6,920 nucleotides of DNA, taken from Chloroflexota bacterium (lineage in GTDB: Bacteria; Chloroflexota; UBA11872). The stretch spans positions 1-6,920 of the forward strand of contig JAPOXI010000047.1 in NCBI GenBank assembly GCA_026707185.1, read 5' to 3'. The notes beneath the pieces are model-generated. The model worked only from the letters and a program-made list of their open reading frames with translations, searched no databases and was not told the origin of the DNA. Shown here in pieces: positions 141-6,920 of the stretch. The position numbers and the translations under genes were made by a program. The first letter of the stretch is position 1; each line of letters opens with the position of its first letter.

Positions 141-1448
141 GTGCGTAGACGCCAGTGGGCCACGCTTGCCGTCATTGCCGTTATCTTCGGCATCGCCTTG
201 TACGTGTCGCTGCCCGGCACGCCCGGATTGCCTATCGAAGTTGCCGGCCGCGACTTGTCCGACCTGCGGTTCCGCCAGGGCCTGGACCTGCAGGGCGGCC
301 TTCACGTCCGCTTCCAGGCCAGCCCGCCGCCTGACCAGCAGTTGCTTGACGGCGATATGGACGCCGTCAAGCGCATCATCGAGAACCGGGTCAATGCCCT
401 CGGCGTGGCCGAGCCGCTGATCCAGATCGAGGGCGATAACCGCCTGATCGTCGAGCTCCCCGGCGTCGAGGACCCCGAAGAAGCCATCCGCGTCTTCCGC
501 CAGACTGGCCAACTCCTGGTCATCAACACCGGATTTGAGTTCATTGACGAGGGCACGCTGCTTCCGGCCGACCCTTCGCAGACCGTGCTTCGCGGTCGCG
601 ACCTGCGCGACGCCCGCGTCGGCTTTGACTCCCTGGGCGCGCCCATGATCGAGTTCGATCTGCAGCCCGACGCCGCCAACCGCTTCCAGACGTACACGGC
701 CAGCCACCTCAACGAGGTGCTCACCATCACCGTGGACGACGTGGTGATCAGTTCGGCCCGCATCGAGGCCGCCATCCGCGACAGCGGCGTCATCCGCGGC
801 TCGTTCACGGCCGACGAAGCCCGCAACGTCGCCATCCAGCTTCGTTACGGTGCGCTCCCGGTCCCGCTGGAAGTCGTCCAGACCCTGAGCGTCCGTCCCA
901 CCCTCGGTCAGGAGTCCCTGCAGGCCAGCCTGCGAGCCGGTGTGGTCGGCGCCCTCCTCGTCCTGGTCTTTATGGTCGCCTTCTACCGTGTGCCTGGCCT
1001 CGTGGCCGCCCTGGCGTTGATGGTCTACGCCTCCGTCGTCTTCGCCGTCTTCAAGCTCATCCCCGTGACGCTCACTCTTTCGGGCCTGGCCGGATTCATC
1101 CTGTCCGTGGGTGTGGCGGTCGACGCCAACATCCTGATATTCGAGCGCACGCGCGAGGAACTGCGCGCGGGCCGCGCCATCCGCGGCGCCATCGAATCGG
1201 GCTTCAACCGCGCCTGGCCGTCCATTCGCGACTCCAACATCTCCACCCTCATCATCTGTGCCGTGCTCTTTGGCTTTGGCAGCGGCGGCGTGCGCGGCTT
1301 TGCCGTCACCCTGGCCATTGGCGTCGCCGTCAGCATGTTCAGCGCCATTACCGTCAGCCGAAACCTGCTGCGCTTGACCATCGCCTGGCCGGTGCTTACC
1401 CGACCCCGTCTATTCGGCGCCGGTGCGACCCCGAGTTCTGAAACCTGA
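141..1448 (+). CDS. secD: Protein translocase subunit SecD
   Basis: SecD works with SecF at the membrane to pull exported proteins out of the SecYEG channel on the outer face, using the proton gradient. The 435-residue product has an N-terminal membrane helix (about residues 7-24) and the family signature GLDLQGGLHV (47-56). The periplasm-type P1 region includes E-N-R-V-N-A-L-G-V (81-89) and ends with TLGQESL (254-260). Five further hydrophobic helices lie between about 265 and 415. The RND-type motif V-D-A-N-I-L-I-F-E-R (327-336) carries the membrane aspartate D328 needed for proton coupling. The length matches the short SecD of many non-proteobacterial lineages; E. coli SecD is about 615 residues. 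The GTG start at 141 follows GGGAGG at 124-129. The stop TGA shares its last base with the secF ATG, so the two are translationally coupled. The identification is firm. Confidence 0.97.
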   Translation: MRRRQWATLAVIAVIFGIALYVSLPGTPGLPIEVAGRDLSDLRFRQGLDLQGGLHVRFQASPPPDQQLLDGDMDAVKRIIENRVNALGVAEPLIQIEGDNRLIVELPGVEDPEEAIRVFRQTGQLLVINTGFEFIDEGTLLPADPSQTVLRGRDLRDARVGFDSLGAPMIEFDLQPDAANRFQTYTASHLNEVLTITVDDVVISSARIEAAIRDSGVIRGSFTADEARNVAIQLRYGALPVPLEVVQTLSVRPTLGQESLQASLRAGVVGALLVLVFMVAFYRVPGLVAALALMVYASVVFAVFKLIPVTLTLSGLAGFILSVGVAVDANILIFERTREELRAGRAIRGAIESGFNRAWPSIRDSNISTLIICAVLFGFGSGGVRGFAVTLAIGVAVSMFSAITVSRNLLRLTIAWPVLTRPRLFGAGATPSSET

Positions 1449-2386
1449 TGTTTGCCATCACCTCGCGGCGCGGCTGGTGGTACGTGCTGTCCCTGGCGCT
1501 GATCGTGCCCGGCGTCGTCGCCCTTCTGACCGGTGGCCTGAAGCCGGGCATCGACTTCACCGGCGGCTCGCTAGTCCAGCTTCGTTTCGAGCAGGACATC
1601 ACGCAGCAGGCCATCCAGGCCACGGCCGTCGATGTCGGCTATCCGGGCGCAACCGTGCAGCTCACCGAAGACCGCGGCGCCCTGGTCCGCACGCCGCCCC
1701 TCGACGTTGAAGCCAAGGACGCCCTCGTCGACGCCATCCTTGAGCGTTCCGGCCCCGGCCAGGAACTCAGCTTTTCCACCATCGGACCTGTCGTGGGCGC
1801 GGAACTCACCCGCGCGGCCGCCATCGGCGTGGCCGTGGCCTCAGTCCTCATCCTGCTCTATGTCATGTGGGCCTTCCGCCGCATGGAGCGACCCGTCGTG
1901 CTTGGTCTGGCCGCCATCGGCGCCCTTCTGCACGACGCGCTGTTCATCCTCGGACTCTTCGCCGTGCTCGGCCACGTCGTCGGCGTGCAGGTCGACGCGC
2001 TTTTCGTCACCGCCATCCTTACGGTCATCGGCTTTTCCGTGAACGACACCATCGTCGTATTCGACCGGATTCGTGAGAACCGCCAGCGCCACCTCCGCCT
2101 GCCCGACGCCCAGCGCCCGAACTTCGAGCAGACGGTCAATTTCAGCGCCAACCAGAGCCTCACCCGCTCCCTCAACACCTCGCTGACCGCGGTCCTGGTG
2201 TTGCTGTCGCTCATCGTGCTGGGCGGACCCACGATCCGCCTGTTCGTCGTCGCCCTGGCCGCCGGGTTTCTGATTGGAACCTACTCGTCGATCTTCGCCG
2301 CCTCGTCAGCCCTGGTGTCCTGGGACCGCCGCGACGTTCCCCGCATCTGGGAACGATTTCGAAGCAAGCTGACGCTCGTCCGCTAG
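1448..2386 (+). CDS. secF: Protein translocase subunit SecF
   Basis: SecF is the partner of SecD in the proton-driven SecDF complex. The 312-residue protein has a first membrane helix at about 11-28 and the signature GIDFTGGSLVQL (34-45). A small external domain follows to about 108, then I-G-P-V-V-G-A-E-L (112-120) and five helices between about 124 and 290. The conserved L-H-D (161-163), the motif G-F-S-V-N-D-T-I-V-V-F-D-R-I (195-208) and R-S-L-N-T-S-L-T (240-247) are all present, so the protein appears functional. The ATG overlaps the secD stop by one base (TGATG) and has no clear Shine-Dalgarno of its own, consistent with coupled translation. The stop TAG at 2384-2386 overlaps the stop of the converging accB-like gene. 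Confidence 0.97.
   Translation: MFAITSRRGWWYVLSLALIVPGVVALLTGGLKPGIDFTGGSLVQLRFEQDITQQAIQATAVDVGYPGATVQLTEDRGALVRTPPLDVEAKDALVDAILERSGPGQELSFSTIGPVVGAELTRAAAIGVAVASVLILLYVMWAFRRMERPVVLGLAAIGALLHDALFILGLFAVLGHVVGVQVDALFVTAILTVIGFSVNDTIVVFDRIRENRQRHLRLPDAQRPNFEQTVNFSANQSLTRSLNTSLTAVLVLLSLIVLGGPTIRLFVVALAAGFLIGTYSSIFAASSALVSWDRRDVPRIWERFRSKLTLVR
2383..2386. other. Convergent gene junction: two stop codons sharing a palindromic CTAG
   Basis: The plus-strand bases 2383-2386 read CTAG. Bases 2384-2386 are the TAG of secF, and the complement of 2383-2385 is the TAG of the accB-like gene, so the coding regions overlap tail-to-tail by four bases. There is no intergenic space. No GC-rich hairpin followed by a T-run is visible on either strand within about 60 bases on each side, so an intrinsic terminator is not evident. 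Confidence 0.9.
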
Positions 2387-2832
2387 TCCGCGTCGGCGCT
2401 CCGTCGAAGTTCAGCCAGCGCCTGACCGTATTCAACAACCTCACCGTCGTGTACCAGCAGCCGTTCAACCACGCCGTCCTCGGGCACGCAGATGTCGTGT
2501 GCCACGCCCAGCACGTCCACGTATCCGATGGTCTGCCCTTCGTCGACGGCGTCGCCAACCCCTACGAGCGCCGGCGCGCCCGGTTCGCTCAGCGCCACGA
2601 ACACGCCAACCTGCTCCGACGTCACCACGACCAATCCGTCGGCCGCTGACTCGGCGTCGTCGGCCGCAGCCGTTTCGGCCGCGATTACGCCCAACGCGCT
2701 GGACCGCCGCACTCGGATGGTGCGTTCGGCGTCACCAACTTCAATCTCCTCGGCACCCGTCTCCCGCAGCAACCGGGCCAGGCGCGGAACATCCTCATCG
2801 AGCGCTGCTTCCCATTGCGGGTCAGTGGTCAT
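2383..2832 (-). CDS. BCCP-like (AccB-type) biotinyl-domain protein lacking the biotin-acceptor lysine
   Basis: The 149-residue product follows the architecture of the biotin carboxyl carrier protein of acetyl-CoA carboxylase. An amphipathic N-terminal helix plus strand (about 8-43, ending E-R-T-I-R-V-R-R) precedes an acidic Ala/Asp/Glu linker (51-65) and a biotinyl-type beta-barrel (about 67-143). The stretch from G76 to D94 (GVFVALSEPGAPALVGVGD) has the same length as the thumb-containing segment of E. coli BCCP. The hairpin that should carry E-A-M-K-M reads D106-V-L-G-V110, so the acceptor lysine is Gly109 (codon GGC, 2506-2508). No lysine occurs anywhere in the protein, which excludes biotinylation and lipoylation. 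A point error is unlikely: GGC differs from AAG/AAA at two or three positions, and the frame is continuous and matches the family on both sides. The ATG start is preceded by GAGG (2838-2841, 5-base spacing) and lies 18 bases after efp. The position matches accB in pepP/Q-efp-accB-accC clusters, but accC does not follow. Seen: fold-like sequence and missing lysine. Inferred: a regulatory or structural carrier homologue rather than a working BCCP. Confidence 0.82.
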   Translation of the reverse strand: MTTDPQWEAALDEDVPRLARLLRETGAEEIEVGDAERTIRVRRSSALGVIAAETAAADDAESAADGLVVVTSEQVGVFVALSEPGAPALVGVGDAVDEGQTIGYVDVLGVAHDICVPEDGVVERLLVHDGEVVEYGQALAELRRSADAD

Positions 2833-2850: not shown

Positions 2851-3408
2851 TTAGACGCGGGTCTGGTATTCGCCGCTACGCGAGTCGATCCGCAGGATGT
2901 CACCAGTCTCAACGAACAGCGGGACCTGCACTTCCAGCCCGGTCGCAACCCGCGCCATCTTGGTAGCACCGGTGGCCGTGTCGCCTCGAATGCCGGGCTC
3001 CGTCTCCACAACCTCGATGTCCACATTGATGGGCAATTCAACGCCGAGCGGCGCACCTTCGAAGGACGTGATCTCCAGGTCAAGCCCGTCGGTCAGATAA
3101 TCGGCGGAATCGCCAACCGCGTCCGCGGACAGCGTCATGTCTTCGTAGGTCTCCATGTCCATGAAGTGGTAGCCGGAGGCGTCCTGATACAGGTATTGCA
3201 CCTTATGCGTATCCAGGATCACGCGCTCAAAGCGCTTTGAGGCCTGGAATGAACGATCGGTCGTCGACCCGCTGCGAACGTCGCGCACGCGCAGCCGCAC
3301 GTTCGCCGATCCTCGGCCAATCTTCTGGTGCTGGAAGTCGACGACCTGGCACAGGGCGCCGTCGATTCGTAGCACCCAGCCTCGCCGCAGTTCGCCCGCG
3401 TCAATCAC
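2851..3408 (-). CDS. efp: Translation elongation factor P
   Basis: EF-P binds stalled ribosomes between the P and E sites and relieves arrest at consecutive prolines. The 185-residue product has the three beta-domains of the family: an N-terminal KOW-like domain (about 1-62), a middle OB domain (about 65-125) and a C-terminal OB domain (about 129-185). The C-terminal domain carries the complete family signature from K150 to G169 (K-M-A...G-L-E-V-Q-V-P-L-F-V-E-T-G). The tip of the domain I loop reads Q28-K-I-G-R32-G-S-A-N, so the residue that is modified in other bacteria is Arg32, and the usual preceding proline is Ile30. Whether Arg32 is modified cannot be told; no EarP, EpmA/B or YmfI gene is in the window. 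The GTG start is set by an excellent AAGGAGG (3416-3422) seven bases upstream. It follows the M24 peptidase after 57 bases and precedes the accB-like gene by 18. Confidence 0.96.
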   Translation of the reverse strand: MIDAGELRRGWVLRIDGALCQVVDFQHQKIGRGSANVRLRVRDVRSGSTTDRSFQASKRFERVILDTHKVQYLYQDASGYHFMDMETYEDMTLSADAVGDSADYLTDGLDLEITSFEGAPLGVELPINVDIEVVETEPGIRGDTATGATKMARVATGLEVQVPLFVETGDILRIDSRSGEYQTRV

Positions 3409-3465: not shown

Positions 3466-4527
3466 TCACTTACGAGCCTGCGTCAATACGTCAACGCCGT
3501 CGGCCTCAATCACCACCAGATCCTCGATCCGCACCCCGCCCCAGCCAGGCAGGTAGATGCCCGGTTCAACCGACACCACCGCGCCGGTCTTCAGAGAACC
3601 TGAGCCTCGCGGCGAGAGCGTGGGCGCTTCATGAATCTCAAGTCCCACGCCGTGCCCGGTCCCGTGTCCGAAGTTCTCGCCGAATCCCGCGTTGCCAATC
3701 ACCTGGCGGGCCAGCGAATCGGCTTCCCGCCCAGTCATCCCGGCGCGCGTCCCGGCCTCGGTGGCTAACTGCGCCTCCAGCACGATCCCGTAGATCTCTT
3801 CGAATCGGGCGTCCGCCGCCCCAGCCGTGAACGTGCGCGTGATATCCGAGCAGTACCCGTCCAGTCGAACGCCCAGATCCACAATCACCGGTTCGCCCGC
3901 GCCGATGGGCCGCAGACCTGGCGAATGATGTGCCATCGCCGCATTCGGCCCGCCGGCCACAATCGTCGGGAACGACGGCCCGTCCCCGGCTTCTCGAATC
4001 AGGCGCTCCAGCTCGAGCGAGAGTTCACGCTCGGTCATACCGGCCGCCACGGTATTGCCGGCTGCGGCCATCACGTCGTCTGCCAGCCGCACCGCCTCGC
4101 GCAGGAGGGCAAGTTCCGCTTCATCCTTGGCGACGCGCTGGTCCTCGACCGAACCATCGAGTGGCACAACCGGAATCTCGTGCGCCTCCTCGGCCAGTCG
4201 CTCCACCAGCTCGCGATGCTGCTTCAGCGACGTGTGCTCAGACTCCACGCCCAGCCGACCGATCGACCGCTCGCCAACCCAGGCCGCCACCACGCCGAGC
4301 GTGTCGACGTTTTCAATCACGTCGAATCCCGAGGCCTGGCGCGCCGCCTGTTCCGTGTAGCGGGAGTCAGTCACCAGCCTCCGGTCCCGCTTCGAGATCA
4401 GCAAGGTGGCCGCCGTTCCGGTGAATCCGCTGAGGTAACGCCGGTTTGCCTCGCCGGTCACCAGCATCGCGTCCACGCCCAGTTCATCCAGGCGCGACGC
4501 CAACCGCTCGGTGCGATTGGCCGTCAA
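3466..4527 (-). CDS. pepP: M24-family Xaa-Pro aminopeptidase / dipeptidase
   Basis: The product is a cytosolic two-metal peptidase of the creatinase/prolidase-like M24 family that removes N-terminal residues ahead of proline or splits X-Pro dipeptides. The 353 residues comprise an N-terminal creatinase-type domain (about 1-130, with the typical N-R-R-Y-L-S-G-F-T-G at 28-37) and a pita-bread catalytic domain (about 135-353). All five metal ligands can be placed: D217 (I-V-D-L-G), D228 (C-S-D-I-T-R-T), H292 (G-T-G-H-G-V-G-L), E321 (S-V-E-P-G-I-Y) and E335 (R-I-E-D-L). The conserved H201 of M-A-H-H-S-P-G is also present. The length is typical of the short PepP/PepQ-type enzymes beside efp in Gram-positive-like lineages; pepP and pepQ cannot be separated from sequence alone. 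The start is TTG at 4527, inside TTGA with the mltG stop (4-base overlap) and without its own Shine-Dalgarno, implying translational coupling. Confidence 0.93.
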   Translation of the reverse strand: MTANRTERLASRLDELGVDAMLVTGEANRRYLSGFTGTAATLLISKRDRRLVTDSRYTEQAARQASGFDVIENVDTLGVVAAWVGERSIGRLGVESEHTSLKQHRELVERLAEEAHEIPVVPLDGSVEDQRVAKDEAELALLREAVRLADDVMAAAGNTVAAGMTERELSLELERLIREAGDGPSFPTIVAGGPNAAMAHHSPGLRPIGAGEPVIVDLGVRLDGYCSDITRTFTAGAADARFEEIYGIVLEAQLATEAGTRAGMTGREADSLARQVIGNAGFGENFGHGTGHGVGLEIHEAPTLSPRGSGSLKTGAVVSVEPGIYLPGWGGVRIEDLVVIEADGVDVLTQARK

Positions 4528-5576: not shown

Positions 5577-6031
5577 GGCCTCTCACTCCTCAGATAATCC
5601 AGCAGCAAAATCTCTGCAGCGCGTGCATCGACGTCAGCGTCGCCTGCCCCATCGCGCCGGGCGGCCTGTGTGGTCAAGTGCTCGTCCTTCCAGATCACAG
5701 GCTCGCAGCGGCCTTCAAGCAGCTGGGCAGCCCAGCGCCGGCTGCGCGCGGCCTGCGCGCTCTCCGTTCCGTCCGTATTCAACGGCAGTCCGATCACGAT
5801 TGTTGCGCCTGGATAGGCATCCAGAATCGAGCCCACCACATCACGGTCGGCGCTCCCGCCGGTCCGCTTCAGCACTTCGCGCATCGTGACGAACGATCCA
5901 CCCGCATCCGTGATTGCCACACCAATCCGCCGTTCCCCCAGGTCCAGTGCGCCAACCCGCCGCCCCAGAGCCGCTGGTGGCTGCTCCGGGTCAAGGGGTG
6001 GGCGTCGGGAGCGGCGCTTCGACCTGAACAT
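5570..6031 (-). CDS. ruvX: Putative pre-16S rRNA nuclease / Holliday junction resolvase-like RuvX (YqgF)
   Basis: YqgF proteins are RNase H-fold nucleases implicated in maturing the 5' end of 16S rRNA and in recombination. With the ATG at 6031 the product is 153 residues. The first strand is A-L-D-L-G-E-R-R-I-G-V-A (28-39) with the metal-binding D30; I-V-I-G-L-P-L-N-T-D-G-T (78-89) and K-D-E-H-L-T-T (115-121) with E117 follow, and D-A-R-A-A-E-I-L-L-L (135-144) carries D135. All three acidic positions remain. Between D-E-H-L-T-T and D135 there are 13 residues, against 21 in E. coli YqgF, so the usually basic loop is shortened. The start is uncertain. ATG 6031 overlaps the upstream gene by 41 bases and adds a basic, Pro-rich leader (MFRSKRRSRRPP). 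An ATG at 6079 would overlap by 89. A CTG at 5968 would give the usual short N-terminus (132 residues) but is a rare start. No good Shine-Dalgarno supports any of them. Confidence 0.88.
   Translation of the reverse strand: MFRSKRRSRRPPLDPEQPPAALGRRVGALDLGERRIGVAITDAGGSFVTMREVLKRTGGSADRDVVGSILDAYPGATIVIGLPLNTDGTESAQAARSRRWAAQLLEGRCEPVIWKDEHLTTQAARRDGAGDADVDARAAEILLLDYLRSERPC
5586..5590 (-). promoter_or_regulatory. Shine-Dalgarno for mltG inside the ruvX coding region
   Basis: AGGAG on the minus strand lies nine bases before the mltG GTG (5574-5576), within the last codons of ruvX. It supports the GTG start that overlaps the ruvX TGA by seven bases and indicates that mltG can initiate independently as well as by coupling. 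Confidence 0.6.
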
Positions 6032-6920
6032 CGATGCGGAATCCAATTCTCGGAAAGTTGGACGTATCGACGGGGTCATGCGTGACTGTCACCTGGTCCA
6101 CACCCGGCAGCGCGCGCAAGGCCAAGAGCCCTTCACCCAGCGAGCGCCCGGACACCGTGTCGCGCACTTTGTTGTGGTCGATCGTGTCCACCGCCTCGGC
6201 TATCGCATGCACGCGCAGATCGAGTAGTCCTTGTCGCTCACCCAGCACTTCAGTGTCTACCACCCGAACCGAGTCGATTTCGAATGACTGCCCCTCCAGC
6301 GAGTCCTGAAGACGCCGGCGCAGCACCGCTTCAAGATCCTCCGTAGCGAAGGCCGTGCCCAGCGCCCGGATCTCCATTGAAAGCGAAAGTTCCGCGGCGT
6401 GCTCATCGGCTACCGCGCTGAACTCCCGTCGCAGAACCTGGGGGTTCCCACTTGCCGGCGACCAGACGATGAGCGACTGGTTAGCCGGACGGTCGCGACG
6501 CAGGTGCTCAGTGGCCGCGCTCTGCAAGCGCTCGGTCAGCAGAGCATCCAGTTCAGTACGGTCGCGCTCGGACACCAGCGCCACTTCCAGCTCCGAGCCA
6601 CCCTCCAGCGGCTGCGGGTTGAATGCCTCCAGCGCCCCACCAAACGGACCGTCCACTGTCGTGATCGCCAGCGCGGGTGCATTACCGGCGAGGCCCGGCG
6701 ACTCGGCCGTCACCGCCACGATGGCCTCCCCGGGCACATCGCGGCCGCCAACCTGCAGCGTGGGTGGAACCAGAAACTCCGCATCCGTGAGGAATCCCGT
6801 CCCGTCGTCGGACATCACTCGTGTCCCTACCGGCAGCACCACGGCCTGGCGCGTGCGATTGCGAATCGTCACAAAGCCGGTGGCAACACCCTGGGCCTCT
6901 CGCCGACGTCCCGTTGTGGG
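5991..6920 (-). CDS. Baseplate-J-like (gp47-type) protein, C-terminal part; 5' end beyond the window
   Basis: The frame is open from the window edge to TGA at 5991-5993 (309 residues visible). A GTG at 6872 is not a credible start because similar sequence continues upstream through E-A-Q-G-V-A-T-G-F without a stop. The visible part starts with a beta-rich stretch of the form N-R-T-x(6)-P-V-G-T-x-V followed by G-x-x-F-x-T. It then has S-P-G-L-A-G-N-A-P and, after a short gap, N-P-Q-P-L-E-G-G. This combination is typical of the Baseplate J-like family, known from phage tail baseplates and from chromosomal proteins in Chloroflexota, Actinobacteria and Cyanobacteria. A mixed alpha/beta region follows, then R-S-L-G-E-G-L-L-A-L-R-A-L-P-G-V, a beta-strand end (F-P-R-I-G-F-R-I-D-V) and a Pro/Thr tail (PLPTPTP). 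No other tail or contractile-injection genes are nearby, so a stand-alone envelope or surface protein is more likely than a phage part. The family call is from pattern memory and the function is unknown. Confidence 0.6.
   Translation of the reverse strand, partial: PTTGRRREAQGVATGFVTIRNRTRQAVVLPVGTRVMSDDGTGFLTDAEFLVPPTLQVGGRDVPGEAIVAVTAESPGLAGNAPALAITTVDGPFGGALEAFNPQPLEGGSELEVALVSERDRTELDALLTERLQSAATEHLRRDRPANQSLIVWSPASGNPQVLRREFSAVADEHAAELSLSMEIRALGTAFATEDLEAVLRRRLQDSLEGQSFEIDSVRVVDTEVLGERQGLLDLRVHAIAEAVDTIDHNKVRDTVSGRSLGEGLLALRALPGVDQVTVTHDPVDTSNFPRIGFRIDVQVEAPLPTPTP

Follow-up and report, generated by a model that had tools for sequence, protein, structure and literature searches.

The 149-residue protein encoded next to efp in this Chloroflexota stretch is a homologue of the biotin carboxyl carrier protein (BCCP, or AccB), in which a glycine occupies the site of the biotin-accepting lysine. 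It belongs to a family of lysine-less copies that maintains the altered acceptor hairpin under purifying selection, and a second, lysine-bearing BCCP is present in each of the 13 closest genomes. We propose that the lysine-less protein probably serves acetyl-CoA carboxylase (ACC) as a dedicated subunit without catalytic activity, paired with a biotinylated partner. An earlier note on the window (the whole stretch of 6,920 nucleotides analysed here) had suggested a bacterial counterpart of the plant BADC proteins. The conserved lysine-less hairpin, the purifying selection, the partner in the 13 nearest genomes and the location of homologues between accA and accC all support that suggestion, and from these features we infer the function.

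Gene, fold and acceptor hairpin of the lysine-less protein

The window comprises secD and secF on the plus strand, which converge on a minus-strand row of a baseplateJ-like gene, ruvX, mltG, an M24 peptidase gene, efp and the 149-residue open reading frame (ORF). The features of interest are as follows:

2383..2832, minus strand: lysine-less BCCP homologue, 149 residues, ATG start with GAGG 5 nt before it
2704..2796, minus strand: end of the N-terminal helix and β-hairpin (residues 13-43), matched by alignment to the E. coli BCCP N-terminal domain; window-clade identity 0.91
2635..2703, minus strand: linker (residues 44-66), low pLDDT at 46-63; window-clade identity 0.52
2407..2634, minus strand: biotinyl-type domain (residues 67-142), assigned by Pfam, model and Foldseek
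2563..2598, minus strand: segment equivalent to the BCCP thumb (residues 79-90), 12 residues in the window protein
2503..2517, minus strand: former biotin-acceptor hairpin D106-V-L-G-V110, with the Gly109 codon GGC at 2506-2508
2422..2436, minus strand: V133-E-Y-G-Q137 motif, near-universal in non-lysine copies and absent from fabF-linked lysine copies
2851..3408, minus strand: efp (elongation factor P), immediately upstream of the lysine-less gene, its stop codon 18 nt before the ATG
3466..4527, minus strand: M24 peptidase gene, upstream of efp, a conserved neighbour
1448..2386, plus strand: secF, convergent, its 3' end overlapping that of the lysine-less ORF by 4 nt

The order M24 peptidase, efp, lysine-less BCCP and secF recurs in 12 of the 13 closest genomes (matches under 1e-45 in a scan of 400 genomes, which picked up both kinds of copy and is therefore no tally of lysine-less ones), and the thirteenth ends at a contig edge. 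No acc gene was found beside the lysine-less BCCP of the window lineage in the stretches examined. At the other end of the row, the Baseplate_J-like ORF (5991-6920, minus strand, E 2.8e-7) shares 89 nt with the ruvX ORF and adjoins ruvX-mltG in many of the relatives fetched. The loop encoded by the window efp (2851-3408, minus strand) reads K-I-G-R-G, the arginine of which, by comparison with E. coli EF-P, seems to stand at the modified-lysine position of many EF-Ps.

Codons 106-110 read GAC GTG CTG GGC GTG (positions 2517-2503), which together with the ORF list confirmed the hairpin D-V-L-G-V reported earlier, with Gly109 at the biotin-lysine site and no lysine among the 149 residues. The accompanying caveat, that total absence of lysine is weak evidence, was also well founded: at the lysine frequency of the six other window proteins (18/1804), zero lysine in the whole protein has a probability of 0.22, and the aligned homologues carry 0-5 lysines each. 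We therefore rejected the complete absence of lysine as evidence of selection.

Sequence searches and structure prediction place the protein inside the BCCP family. Pfam Biotin_lipoyl matches residues 70-142 (E 2.5e-9), and the best NCBIfam model is the BCCP model TIGR00531 (E 2.3e-15), whose score of 57.4 bits is below the cut-off of 115.2, a threshold that is missed as well by two lysine-bearing Chloroflexota partners (106.2 and 106.8). In a profile search, the best PDB sequence match was E. coli BCCP (4hr7_B, E 1.2e-16), covering residues 13-142 with the N-terminal domain included. In the AlphaFold2 model (mean pLDDT 78.1, pTM 0.50), an N-terminal helix spanning residues 5-25 is followed by a short hairpin at 29-42, and a disordered linker, whose residues 46-63 have pLDDT <50, leads to the biotinyl domain. 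Foldseek gave 1bdo as the top match (TM 0.89 by target length), the other closest solved folds being 5gua (archaeal BCCP), 9a87 (Arabidopsis BCCP1) and 4hr7. The model and Foldseek agree with the earlier view that the flanks of the hairpin still fit the biotinyl fold, and both sequence and model point to an N-terminal domain of the AccC-binding type. The E-x-M-K-M biotin acceptor is missing, as lysine occupies the site in none of the 67 aligned sequences. A lipoate-lysine hairpin is missing too, with Gly109 in its place and with BCCP models and chains outranking the lipoyl ones.

This alignment derives from a search of ~5.8 billion proteins that returned 67 entries, the window protein's own among them, and it comprises the window protein and 66 homologues. 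The acceptor hairpin reads DVLGV in 62 rows and EVLGV in one, and four are truncated or frameshifted there; the loss of lysine is therefore not an isolated one. An organism is given for four of the 67 entries, namely Chloroflexota or Chloroflexi in all four. A profile search extended the family to 680 homologues, the best 120 of which include a longer form with the same hairpin type.

Within the window clade (14 rows), the acceptor hairpin and the N-terminal part have the highest mean pairwise identities of the regions compared (0.95 and 0.91), as against 0.76 for the biotinyl domain overall and 0.52 for the linker. Residues D106, L108, G109 and V110 are invariant in 14/14 sequences, and none of the 14 contains an internal stop. 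Among 12 close sequences (the window and 11 genomes), the median dN/dS of the lysine-less gene is 0.146, ranging from 0.081 to 0.221 over 64 pairs with a finite estimate, compared to 0.127 over 44 pairs for the lysine-bearing partner and 0.047 over 54 pairs for efp. Purifying selection thus acts on the lysine-less protein much as on a functional accB. Together with the conserved hairpin, this supports the claim of a long-standing loss under selection. None of the three refuting outcomes named in the earlier note was observed, as no aligned relative has lysine at the site, dN/dS is not near 1, and homology falls inside the BCCP family. The related claim that the four neighbouring changes are conservative holds for the window clade, whereas the acceptor residue itself varies among lineages.

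The lysine-bearing partner across Chloroflexota

The earlier note had advised looking for a second, lysine-bearing accB, and one was found in each of the 13 closest genomes. This copy carries the sequence EAMKVFNE and comes after fabF in 12 of them; in the other (G291) the gene is cut by the contig end. Each of the 13 has a single biotin carboxylase; beyond this set, G331 gave three matches, and G085, which is excluded from the counts, none. A BirA-type biotin ligase (TIGR00121) was detected in 20/20 genomes tested, all 13 included. Judging from these relatives, the window genome itself presumably has a lysine-bearing partner.

The wider pattern was surveyed in 41 genomes, 40 of them drawn evenly from the phylum of G002 and the last being G002 itself, whose pair (locus L016) was known beforehand. 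A profile of both BCCP kinds was used, and matches under 1e-25 were taken as full-length. Full-length free-standing BCCPs numbered none in 15 genomes, one in nine and two in 17, so the arrangement does not extend to the whole phylum. All nine single BCCPs bear the lysine, and the two-BCCP genomes have exactly one lysine-bearing and one lysine-less copy in 17/17 cases (16/16 without G002).

A larger, non-random table of 95 Chloroflexota genomes, from which domains under 60 bits were excluded (as they were from the motif and acceptor-letter counts), contains a lysine-less BCCP in 79. Twenty-one of the tabulated genomes display lysine-less copies alone as no other locus of theirs was fetched, which does not amount to absence of a partner. 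The fabF-linked lysine copy occurs in 55 genomes, of which 54 also have a lysine-less copy; the exception is G036, where no full-length lysine-less copy was found. Wherever a second copy with an efp or acc neighbour accompanies the fabF-linked one, it is lysine-less (52/52), and no fabF-linked copy without lysine was found in the table. The lysine-less copies follow efp in 54 cases, have accA upstream and/or accC downstream in 22 (both in 15), and have no assigned neighbour in four. At the acceptor site, the 159 BCCP-type domains carry K in 80, G in 44, N in 20, Q in seven, R in five, D in two and H in one.

Thirteen tabulated genomes have a lysine-bearing copy beside efp. Whole-genome searches found neither a fabF-linked nor a lysine-less copy in these 13, a few shorter domain-only matches having been read. 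The efp linkage of the lysine-less copy therefore looks inherited. Five Chloroflexota genomes with an efp-linked lysine copy (loci L306-L309, L322-L324) have further lysine-bearing BCCP-like domains of the types EVMKLMHS and GVMK[TS]FH. A different arrangement is seen in G269 (L203 3257-4204 and L325), where a lysine-bearing and a lysine-less (EVLHI) BCCP are adjacent, and an efp-linked lysine-less copy (QSLNI) gives the genome two lysine-less copies.

Control genomes were taken from four other phyla (60, 60, 61 and 60 genomes). All 118 best-scoring BCCP domains classified there (29, 30, 30 and 29) bear the lysine, so that a lysine-less BCCP as a general bacterial trait is unsupported. A further 20 regions of the control phyla, picked as second copies or weaker matches, each contain a lysine-bearing copy; one genome (G522, phylum of G407) additionally has a domain whose acceptor position aligns to A, located in a 490-residue frame beside a lysine-bearing BCCP (L457). 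In G599, from another phylum, efp stands beside a lysine-bearing BCCP that is followed by accC. A Rhodospirillales metagenome-assembled genome (L028, 5172-9843) encodes a lysine-less BCCP-like protein (DVLGD) adjoining a carboxyltransferase of the pyruvate-carboxylase-B/OadA type, with a lysine-bearing BCCP and a biotin carboxylase in the surroundings. A protein search for its homologues recovered only itself among 55 candidates, and we therefore treat it as a separate case and claim no family.

The acc-linked class and the VEYGQ motif

A second class of lysine-less copies resides in the acc operon. The order accD-accA-lysine-less BCCP-accC, with fabF and the lysine-bearing accB further along, is complete in 11 genomes, including those of L016 and L014. 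In L016, NCBIfam identifies accD, accA, the biotin carboxylase and fabF, and both accB-like genes as BCCP; the fabF of L137 was confirmed likewise, and the remaining loci were labelled by tblastn with the L016 and L137 genes and the window genes as queries. The acc-class copy precedes accC, a slot that BCCP takes in 19/20 regions of other phyla. A homologue between accA and accC is stronger evidence for a link of the family to acetyl-CoA carboxylase than the gene order of the window.

The two classes differ in the thumb segment, which has a length of six residues in all 21 acc-linked lysine-less copies and 4-13 in the efp-linked ones, compared to 12 in 36/36 fabF-linked lysine copies. Given the shortened thumb of the acc-linked class, the two classes may not act identically and may differ somewhat in what they do.

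Downstream of the acceptor, we searched for the motif [VI]E[YF][GDNA][QEHD], which reads VEYGQ in the window protein. It is present in 51/54 efp-linked and 21/21 acc-linked lysine-less copies, the three efp-linked misses being LEYGQ, VQYGQ and VGYGQ. Among lysine-bearing copies, it is found in all 13 efp-linked ones and in 99/115 from the four other phyla, and in none of the 54 fabF-linked ones; the Chloroflexota domains without an assigned neighbour have it in 2/13 lysine-bearing and 3/4 lysine-less cases. Fisher tests of association are extreme, but they overstate independence as the genomes are related. Each member of the pair thus lacks a feature retained by most lone BCCPs, the lysine in one and VEYGQ in the fabF-linked other, as expected after complementary degeneration of duplicates. 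This reciprocal loss, which suggests that the fabF-linked lysine copy is incomplete by itself, is the main reason for thinking that both chains work together.

In a quick tree with the hairpin columns removed, the distribution of lysine-bearing and lysine-less copies requires at least two changes, with good support at few of the deep forks. The acc-linked and efp-linked lysine-less copies group with an SH-aLRT of 84. A single lysine-less clade was not rejected (p-AU 0.784), its likelihood being above that of the free tree. One locus (L146), which is the same as L016, was left out of the tree and of the motif counts.

Proposed role and relation to known carboxylase subunits

In the history that we envisage, an ancestral Chloroflexota accB would have been duplicated. 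The fab-operon copy beside fabF would have retained the biotin lysine and the thumb, whereas the copy beside efp, or between accA and accC, would have dropped the lysine without giving up its BCCP-type N-terminal domain, its biotinyl fold or the VEYGQ face. Both chains are predicted to sit on the biotin carboxylase AccC, the lysine-less one binding AccC and AccB. There it may hold or cap the AccC-AccB subcomplex, as in the "glue" model of BADC, and the lysine-bearing chain would carry the carboxyl group. According to a section of PMC10863985, AlphaFold2 models of E. coli ACC have the N-terminal domain of AccB attached to AccC only, and the biotinyl domain able to reach both AccC and AccA. In the E. 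coli complex, AccC is contacted by the side of BCCP that faces away from the thumb (PMC11926652). The section of PMC10863985 gives four AccB in the accepted make-up, with a dimeric form also reported. A lysine-less copy that has the N-terminal domain could occupy some of these four places. More tentatively, the carrier may even be split, with biotin and thumb on one chain and the VEYGQ face on the other, such that the enzyme needs both; this division would go back to a single event deep within the phylum, separate from the origin of plant BADC.

A lysine-less subunit of ACC could instead act as a brake, competing with biotinylated AccB for AccC and lowering malonyl-CoA under the control of separate, efp-linked expression. 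The retained N-terminal BCCP domain and fold would suit such a competitor, the window-class locus differs from that of the lysine copy in a way that fits independent regulation, and an inhibitory BADC model is reported in the consulted part of PMC11926652. The same text, however, argues against that model in plants. In other lineages the gene for the lysine-less copy stands between accA and accC, where one would hardly expect a brake, and the fabF-linked lysine copies without VEYGQ seem incomplete alone. We thus regard the brake as unlikely, and favour assembly over inhibition as the main role, because the acc-operon location and the reciprocal loss both fit a glue.

It is less probable still that the protein has left acetyl-CoA carboxylase, to act with EF-P or to serve as a binding protein of the efp operon. 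The steady efp neighbour, seen in 54 tabulated genomes and in all of the 13 closest but one, which reaches a contig end, speaks for such a role, but efp also adjoins a lysine-bearing BCCP in 13 Chloroflexota genomes and in G599, and the acc-linked class has the same type of hairpin and clusters, at a modest SH-aLRT, with the efp-linked lysine-less copies. A functionless, decaying duplicate or an assembly error is hardly credible. Although the acceptor residue differs among lineages (G, N, Q, R, D, H), as decay might produce, the fixed D, L, G and V at 106, 108, 109 and 110, the dN/dS of 0.146, the unbroken frames of the window clade and the conserved neighbours of lysine-less copies across 79 of the 95 tabulated genomes contradict it. 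For the family, both a pseudogene and an assembly error were rejected.

A non-catalytic ACC subunit paired with a biotinylated chain resembles plant BADC, which is also a BCCP homologue without the biotinylation motif, also a proposed non-catalytic ACC subunit, and also accompanied by a true BCCP in the same genome, as in our 13 closest relatives and 17/17 two-BCCP genomes. The Chloroflexota copies differ in being bacterial, in adjoining efp or being placed between accA and accC, in having several acceptor residues, and in having a lysine-bearing partner without VEYGQ. By analogy, it is plausible that the lysine-less protein works like BADC. We do not call it a BADC, a name that would imply common descent, and presume an origin independent of the plant proteins. 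In the abstract of PMC11926652, BADC is described as unique to the heteromeric ACCase of plants, and the paper reports it as the glue of the BC-BCCP subcomplex alongside a discussion of the rival inhibitory model.

Within the same phylum, Chloroflexus aurantiacus has an ACC of unusual architecture, with fused BC-BCCP, as described in the portion of PMC11077971 consulted; its BCCP domains have EAMKM, and that portion makes no mention of a lysine-less BCCP. Compared to AccB/BCCP proper (TIGR00531; 4hr7, 1bdo), the window protein shares the fold, the N-terminal domain, the VEYGQ-type motif and the efp-BCCP order, but it lacks E-x-M-K-M and scores 57.4 with TIGR00531 vs 106-107 for two Chloroflexota lysine-bearing partners. 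The AccE or epsilon subunits of bacterial acyl-CoA carboxylases are not known to be BCCP homologues. They are similar in being non-catalytic and serving complex formation, according to excerpts of PMC3199775 and PMC11926652, and differ in that a helix was detected in AccE/epsilon (excerpt of PMC3199775). Searches of the open-licence PMC literature, as far as its accessible text goes, turned up no account of bacterial BCCPs without the lysine.

In Chloroflexota, the label "biotin carboxyl carrier protein" can denote a protein incapable of biotinylation, and such labels occur among the matches. According to the part of PMC11926652 consulted, the role of plant BADC in ACC, assembly vs inhibition, is disputed. 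A bacterial counterpart, free of plastid complications, would allow a direct test of a dead carrier subunit in ACC, and the Chloroflexota offer for this a clear rule of presence and absence, numerous natural variants of the acceptor, and, as single-gene controls, genomes whose one BCCP bears the lysine.
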